From Brachyspira murdochii (GTDB lineage: Bacteria > Spirochaetota > JAAYUW01), in the NCBI GenBank assembly GCA_020722965.1, contig DYJT01000002.1, positions 116,242 through 180,241 on the forward strand: a stretch of DNA of 64,000 nt, given 5' to 3'. Shown piece by piece: positions 2,542-6,550 of this stretch; the first letter of the stretch is position 1, and each line of letters begins with the position of its first letter. A program made the translations under genes and the position numbers. The notes beneath the pieces are model-generated. The model was not told the origin of the DNA and ran no database searches. It was given only the letters and a program-made list of their open reading frames with translations.

Positions 2542-3162
2542 ATGCAGGCAAAACATGGATTTACTGTAATGTTTTTACTGATATTATTGATAATTGTCTT
2601 ATTCGCAGTAGTCTATTGGTTTAACTACCTTGGTTTGGTTAATCTTCCAAGGGCTTATAGTAAAATAGCATCAAGAATACCAGTTATACCTTATGGTAAA
2701 GATATTGCAAATCCTTTTTTACTTGAAAAAGAATTTTACGATAAACTTAAACTATCCTATGAGTCGCAATTCGCACAAATAAAGCAATTAGAGAATTTAT
2801 TAAAAGACAAAGAAGATCAGGCAAATGAAAAAGAAAAGGCAATAGCCGAAGCAGAGAAGGCATTAAAAGAAAAAGAAGAAAATATTTATAGAAAATTAAA
2901 AGAATACGAAGATTATAAGGAGAATATCAGAAAAGAGGCAATTCAGTTTATTAACATGCCACCTAATGAAGCTGTTAAGATACTGAATAATATGGATATT
3001 CTTAAAGTTGTAGATATCCTTCGAGCTATGGATGAATATTTTGCTTCTAGAGGAGAAACATCACTTGTTCCTTATTTGGTAAGCTTGATGCCTCCTGAAA
3101 GAGCAGCAAAATTAAGTGAATACAAAGTCGAAGGAGCAACAACTTTTAGTCCAGCGCCATAA
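2542..3162 (+). CDS. flbB: FlbB / MotE-family periplasmic flagellar protein
   Basis: N-terminal TM, coiled coil, C-terminal MotE-like region (NMPPNEAVKILNNMDILKVVDILRAMDE...MPPERAAKL), fliJ-fliK context as in spirochaetes. Confidence 0.75.
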   Translation: MQAKHGFTVMFLLILLIIVLFAVVYWFNYLGLVNLPRAYSKIASRIPVIPYGKDIANPFLLEKEFYDKLKLSYESQFAQIKQLENLLKDKEDQANEKEKAIAEAEKALKEKEENIYRKLKEYEDYKENIRKEAIQFINMPPNEAVKILNNMDILKVVDILRAMDEYFASRGETSLVPYLVSLMPPERAAKLSEYKVEGATTFSPAP

Positions 3163-5167: not shown

Positions 5168-6550
5168 ATGATGCGATGTTTATATGCAGGAGTTGCAGGT
5201 TTACAAAACCATCAGGTTAGAATGGATGTTATAGGTAATAATGTTTCAAATGTCAACACATATGGTTTTAAGAAAAATAGGGTAAGTTTTCAAGATTTGC
5301 TTTATCAAAACATGTCTGGTGCAGCCGCACCAACAATTGAAGTTGGTGGAATAAATCCAAAACAAGTTGGTCTTGGTATGTCAATTGCTCAAATTGGTAC
5401 TATCTTTACCCAGGGAGCTTTGCAGACAACAGGTAGAAATCTTGATCTTGCTATTACTGGTGAAGGATTTTTCATATTAAAAAAGGGTGAAAATACATTC
5501 TATTCAAGAACCGGTGTTTTTGGTCTTGACAAAGATGGAGTTCTTGTAAATCCAGCTAATGGTTTTAGAGTGCAGGGGTGGAATGCTGAATTTATTGATG
5601 GCAAATATGTTATTAATACTGCAAACCCTATAGGTGAAATACAAATACCTGTAGGTGGAAAATCGCCTGCCAAGGCTACAACAAAAATTGATTATAAATC
5701 AAACTTAAATTCTGAAACAGTTCCCCTACCAACTGGCAGAGAACCAACTGCTGATGAATTAGCTGCTTCTGTTCATAAGACGTCTATAGATATTTATGAC
5801 TCAAAAGGGAACAAGCATCAGCTTCAACTTTCTTTTACAAGAGTTCCAGGAACTGTTAATCAGTGGACATGTCAGGCTACTTTATTGGATTTACCAGATG
5901 TCCAAATTCAATTAGATATTCCTGGTGATAATTTGAATGATTCGAATACAATTTCTTTGTTATTTAACAATGAAGGTGCCATAATAGGGGTACAAGACAA
6001 TCCTAATGAACCTGGTGCTCCAATAGATCTATCAAATGTAGGTAATTTAATTGCCAATGCTAGTTTTACTTTACCAGATGGGCAACAACAAGCTATTACA
6101 TTAAATCTTGGAACTAGTGGAGGATATGATGGTATAACACAGTTTGCATCGCCTACGACAACAAAAGCTATCGACCAGGATGGATATACAATGGGTTATC
6201 TCGAGACTTTTGTAATAGACAATCAGGGAGTAATTACTGGAATTTATTCAAATGGTGAAAAATTACCACTTGGACAGATAGCTCTTGCAACTTTCACAAA
6301 TCCAGAAGGGTTGCAAAAAGTTGGCGATAATGATTTCGCACAAACCATTAACTCCGGGACTGCAAATGTTTCTGCTGCAAATACAGCAGGTAAAGGCGCT
6401 CTTGTAGCAGGCGCACTTGAGATGAGTAATGTTGATTTATCAGAGGAATTTACAGATATGATTGTAACTCAAAGAGGATTTGAAGCGAACTCTAAGACCA
6501 TCCAAACAGCAGATCAGATGCTCCAGGTAATTATGGGATTGAAAAGATAA
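5168..6550 (+). CDS. flgE: Flagellar hook protein FlgE
   Basis: MMRCLYAGVAGLQNHQVRMDVIGNNVSNVNTYGFKK N-terminus; C-terminal EEFTDMIVTQRGFEANSKTIQTADQMLQ. Confidence 0.97.
   Translation: MMRCLYAGVAGLQNHQVRMDVIGNNVSNVNTYGFKKNRVSFQDLLYQNMSGAAAPTIEVGGINPKQVGLGMSIAQIGTIFTQGALQTTGRNLDLAITGEGFFILKKGENTFYSRTGVFGLDKDGVLVNPANGFRVQGWNAEFIDGKYVINTANPIGEIQIPVGGKSPAKATTKIDYKSNLNSETVPLPTGREPTADELAASVHKTSIDIYDSKGNKHQLQLSFTRVPGTVNQWTCQATLLDLPDVQIQLDIPGDNLNDSNTISLLFNNEGAIIGVQDNPNEPGAPIDLSNVGNLIANASFTLPDGQQQAITLNLGTSGGYDGITQFASPTTTKAIDQDGYTMGYLETFVIDNQGVITGIYSNGEKLPLGQIALATFTNPEGLQKVGDNDFAQTINSGTANVSAANTAGKGALVAGALEMSNVDLSEEFTDMIVTQRGFEANSKTIQTADQMLQVIMGLKR

Follow-up and report, generated by a model that had tools for sequence, protein, structure and literature searches.

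The flgE locus and its genomic setting

The window under study, a stretch of DNA of 64,000 nucleotides, belongs to the genome of an Exilispira-like spirochete (2.07 Mb in 41 contigs, 96% complete), the close relatives of which are labelled Exilispira sp. (L048) and Spirochaetales bacterium (L049). The flagellar operon at flgE is complete and in the usual spirochete order, namely fliH, fliI, fliJ, a gene at the flbB position, fliK, flgD, flgE, flbD, motA, motB, a frame at the fliL position and fliM. The open reading frame between fliJ and fliK (2542–3162) has no Pfam match and, judged by its position, is presumably the spirochete flbB; inspection of the flgE operon neighbourhood for inserted or extra genes revealed none.

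The assignment of the gene product to FlgE, made originally from the nucleotide sequence, was borne out by the presence of all four FlgE Pfam domains with scores over the curated cut-off (FlgE_D2, 79.5 bits; Flg_bbr_C; LlgE_F_G_D1; Flg_bb_rod) and by the best PDB match, which is Treponema denticola FlgE (6ndx, E 3e-78); the context is likewise that of a hook operon, with fliK and flgD upstream and flbD, motA and motB downstream. T. denticola residue numbers were assigned through L029, a FlgE that matches the T. denticola PDB chains over this region. With this reference, T. denticola Lys165, Cys178, Asn179, Thr334 and Lys336 correspond to Lys165, Ser178, Asn179, Thr331 and Lys333 of the window protein, with no gap between positions 165 and 179 (table 1). 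Specifically, the Cys178 of the Treponema/Borreliella/Brachyspira type is absent, and a TCA-encoded Ser is found in its place. The original prediction had described precisely this replacement, with Lys165 and Asn179 kept, and both the translation and the gap-free alignment agree with it; the span given for the site (5660–5701) does include Lys165 and Ser178, but it stops one codon before Asn179. The prospect that an alignment would place a conserved Cys at the equivalent position did not materialize, as the Ser falls exactly on T. denticola Cys178. A sequencing error at this codon can also be rejected, since this Ser is shared by all sampled members of the genus and the order, represented by independent metagenome-assembled genomes of the same genus (FlgE identity to the window protein, 94% for L004 and L049, 88% for L005 and L048) and by L006 (74%), which stands for a second family of the same order, with TCA as the codon in the rows checked among these relatives. 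The only cysteines of the protein are Cys4 and Cys235, the latter in the WTCQ motif, as had been stated.

Table 1. Position of flgE and of the residues discussed in the text within the window.
Feature	Position	Strand	Basis
flgE, flagellar hook protein, 460 aa	5168..6550	+	Pfam domains and PDB match
Cys4, in N-terminal rod/D0 motif	5177..5179	+	translation
Lys165 (AAA), lysinoalanine acceptor position	5660..5662	+	translation; invariant in 148/148 spirochete FlgEs
Ser178 (TCA), site of the dehydroalanine donor (Cys178)	5699..5701	+	gap-free alignment to T. denticola Cys178
Asn179 (AAC), structural Asn of the site	5702..5704	+	present in all aligned FlgEs, including non-spirochetes
Cys235 (WTCQ)	5870..5872	+	translation
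Thr331 to Lys333, counterparts of T. denticola Thr334 and Lys336	6158..6166	+	alignment

Position 178 in spirochete FlgE proteins

The window FlgE was aligned with loci from genome collections, for a total of 191 rows, which were thinned at 92% identity to 151 sequences, 148 of them from spirochetes and three from Bacillota; the sample is largely metagenome-assembled, and none of its sequences could be assigned to Leptospira. Position 178 is occupied by Cys in 80 of the 148 non-redundant spirochete FlgEs, by Ser in 67 (about 45%) and by Gly in one. No mixed group was found at either taxonomic level: by family code, 30 are Ser-only and 21 Cys-only, and by genus the corresponding figures are 52 and 43. 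When column 178 is left out of the FlgE tree (a quick single-gene tree), the Cys/Ser label requires 11 changes by parsimony, and six of these are forced by well-supported branches; these counts are independent of the root, so that the ancestral state (Cys or Ser) lies outside their scope. The Ser178 codon is of the TCN type in 41 rows and of the AGY type in 26, with TCA being used in the order of the window and AGY in the neighbouring clade (L007–L011, L033, L034). Because a single substitution cannot turn TCN into AGY, while both TCY and AGY lie a single base away from a Cys codon, it is possible that more switches took place than parsimony counts, the alternative being double substitutions. 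The repeated interchange of Cys and Ser, along with the use of both Ser codon boxes, is what would be expected if the two residues act interchangeably as donors, and not if a single loss had been passed on.

The exception is L088 (Spirochaetota bacterium USST_metabat.101_sub), the sole spirochete FlgE surveyed in which position 178 is occupied by a residue other than Cys or Ser; here Gly (GGC) accompanies conserved Lys165 and Asn179 in a protein devoid of cysteine. Unless this stems from an assembly error, L088 is a candidate for a naturally occurring hook that lacks the Lys165–178 cross-link. A symbiont FlgE, that of the Olavius algarvensis spirochete endosymbiont (L099), is also of the Ser178 type. 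Raw differences between Ser- and Cys-type proteins are strong at positions 181, 182, 183, 177 and others, but the search for residues correlated with the Ser or Cys state was abandoned, as the phylogeny-corrected results listed gave no support, with only six independent pairs.

Conserved and variable residues of the site

Lys165, Thr171 and Asn179 are invariant in the 148 spirochete FlgEs, and Lys165 is equally fixed in the Ser-type (67/67) and in the Cys-type (80/80) proteins. On the same tree no change is found at Lys165, while the nearby columns 164, 166, 167 and 169 undergo 24–53 changes each. Outside spirochetes the column of Lys165 contains Ser in two of the Bacillota, Thr in the third and His in PDB chain 5jxl, which we take to be Campylobacter FlgE and in which residue 178 is Ala. 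Asn179, instead, is present in both the Campylobacter chain and the Bacillota proteins, and the former also has Leu180. Thus, Asn179, described originally as kept, is uninformative on cross-linking and was dropped as support; it is Lys165 that is informative. At column 333 (T. denticola Lys336) Lys is found in 125 of the 148 spirochete proteins. Column 331 (T. denticola Thr334), which contains Ser in 77 and Thr in 71 of the 148 with approximately 20 switches on the tree, is a further two-state hydroxyl site, and the published logo highlights it as well.

Outside position 178, FlgE almost never contains cysteine: 63 of the 67 Ser-type proteins have none, and 78 of the 80 of the Cys-type have one only. 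The Ser-type proteins with any Cys are, in the non-redundant set, those of the window, L005, L006 and L007. The order of Exilispira departs from this pattern. Cys4 is confined, among the 191 rows, to Exilispira and to the same-order relative (L004, L005, L006, L048, L049 and the window), so that it is kept in both sampled families of the order, and Ser is found at this position in 177 rows. A Cys at column 235 is present in six of the 191 rows; where Cys positions were listed, it is found in the window, L004, L005, L048 and L049, and it is absent from L006 and L007.

Serine 178 as the probable lysinoalanine donor

In FlgE of Leptospira interrogans Ser replaces the donor Cys, yet lysinoalanine forms both in the recombinant protein and in wild-type flagella (PMC10691653). 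The residue, Ser179, links to Lys166 and to Lys145 and/or Lys148 (PMC10691653, Lynch et al. 2023). The recombinant protein cross-links alone, at high pH only (pH 10–11 in vitro), in a reaction that is slower, Ser being much less reactive in vitro than Cys; furthermore, the C178S variant of the Treponema protein forms lysinoalanine in vitro (PMC10691653). Ser was counted here as a dehydroalanine-capable residue at position 178 on the strength of this work, and the window FlgE contains both the acceptor Lys165 and such a residue. With Ser being a demonstrated donor in L. interrogans and in Treponema C178S, the original proposal that this FlgE lacks the cross-linking residue is unsupported. The substitution in the window is of a known type, the consequence of which was measured in another order (Leptospira).

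On these grounds, we regard it as probable that the window FlgE is an ordinary spirochete hook protein of the Ser178 type, in which Ser178 is the donor of the normal link with Lys165. In the proposed mechanism, secretion and hook assembly would precede the reaction; beta-elimination would then convert Ser178 to dehydroalanine, with release of water rather than H2S, and Lys165 from an adjacent FlgE subunit would add to the dehydroalanine. The product would be the same lysinoalanine cross-link that is obtained from Cys178 in Treponema and Borreliella. The present analysis shows which residues occupy the site, in what register and how well conserved, as well as the repeated interchange of Cys and Ser, and the literature on other species shows Ser acting as a donor; from their combination we infer that the reaction occurs in this organism. 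Retention of the cross-link is probable, as Lys165, which the non-spirochete FlgEs examined lack, never changes while its neighbours do, in proteins of both types, and as position 178 switches almost exclusively between Cys and Ser, both of which can form dehydroalanine; the complete, normally ordered flgE operon also speaks for this reading. Since the Ser-type protein is much less reactive in vitro, a helper, or a lower cross-link density, is possible in Ser-type hooks.

Loss of the cross-link in the lineage of the window is probably a wrong conclusion. That the hook is not cross-linked, with Ser178 being vestigial or purely structural, is unlikely, although it is the alternative that fares best: Ser leaves less readily than Cys and reacts poorly in vitro (PMC10691653), the evidence gathered here is that of sequences, and the conserved Lys165 and Ser could in principle make a non-covalent contact. 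However, Lys165 is retained in every Ser-type protein, neither Ala nor Thr occurs at position 178 in the spirochete proteins surveyed, the Cys-to-Ala mutant of Borreliella is non-motile (PMC10691653), and the published Ser-type FlgE does cross-link.

A dedicated enzyme that activates Ser178, for example by phosphorylation followed by elimination as in lanthipeptide dehydratases, is improbable. Its attraction lies in the suggestion that the low reactivity of Ser may be offset by factors in the cell (PMC10691653). On the other hand, recombinant Leptospira FlgE needs no partner, and the flgE operon contains no extra gene. The search of this genome for LanM-type (PF13575) and LanB-type (PF04738) dehydratases gave no match, which argues only weakly against such an enzyme as the controls gave none either. 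Thus, of the earlier idea that Ser is dehydrated by another route, the Ser-derived dehydroalanine stands as a possibility, while a different route is in principle needless given the behaviour of the recombinant protein at high pH. The takeover by another Cys, also put forward originally, is the least probable of all: the presence of cysteines in so few Ser-type proteins, with Cys4 kept order-wide and Cys235 within the genus, may hint at Cys4 or Cys235 as the donor in Exilispira, but the 63 Ser-type proteins devoid of Cys imply that these hooks need none, Cys4 belongs to the N-terminal rod/D0 motif and is thus distant from Lys165 in the sequence, L006 lacks Cys235, and the Lys165–Ser178 pair is present anyway.

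Implications and comparison with known systems

Ser178 as the donor in the window protein would be one case of a broader pattern. We find it reasonably probable that the donor switched repeatedly between Cys and Ser across Spirochaetota, that Ser is the commoner at the family level (30 versus 21 codes), and that the picture of a conserved cysteine with Leptospira as the exception reflects study bias. If so, most spirochete hooks would be welded through serine. The survey adds that the two residues are similar in frequency, that they interchanged repeatedly and that each sampled family is of one type; that the Ser-type is about as common as the Cys-type across the phylum is absent from PMC10691653 and may be new. 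It also opens to experiment the question of how elimination proceeds at physiological pH from a residue that leaves poorly. Finally, the cross-link has been proposed as a target for antimicrobials, and a cysteine-dependent approach would miss the Ser-type species.

Among the known systems, T. denticola FlgE (Lys165–Cys178; PDB 6ndx, 6ndt, 6ndv, 6ndw) shares with the window protein the family, the numbering, Lys165 and Asn179, but its donor is Cys; chain 6ndt_B of this set has Ser at 178. Brevinema andersonii FlgE (A0A1I1E638; Lys165, Ser178, Thr328), already noted for its Lys165 and Ser178 (PMC10691653), has the same pair as the window protein, although it belongs to another lineage, and its cross-link is likewise predicted. 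Leptospira interrogans FlgE resembles the window protein in having Ser at the donor site with the acceptor Lys kept, but it belongs to a different order and uses Lys145/Lys148 too; Lys146 of the window protein lies near the position of the conserved Leptospira Lys148 but is no certain counterpart of it, as placed in an alignment without an identified Leptospira sequence. In Leptospira the cross-link was measured, whereas the window protein is known from its sequence.
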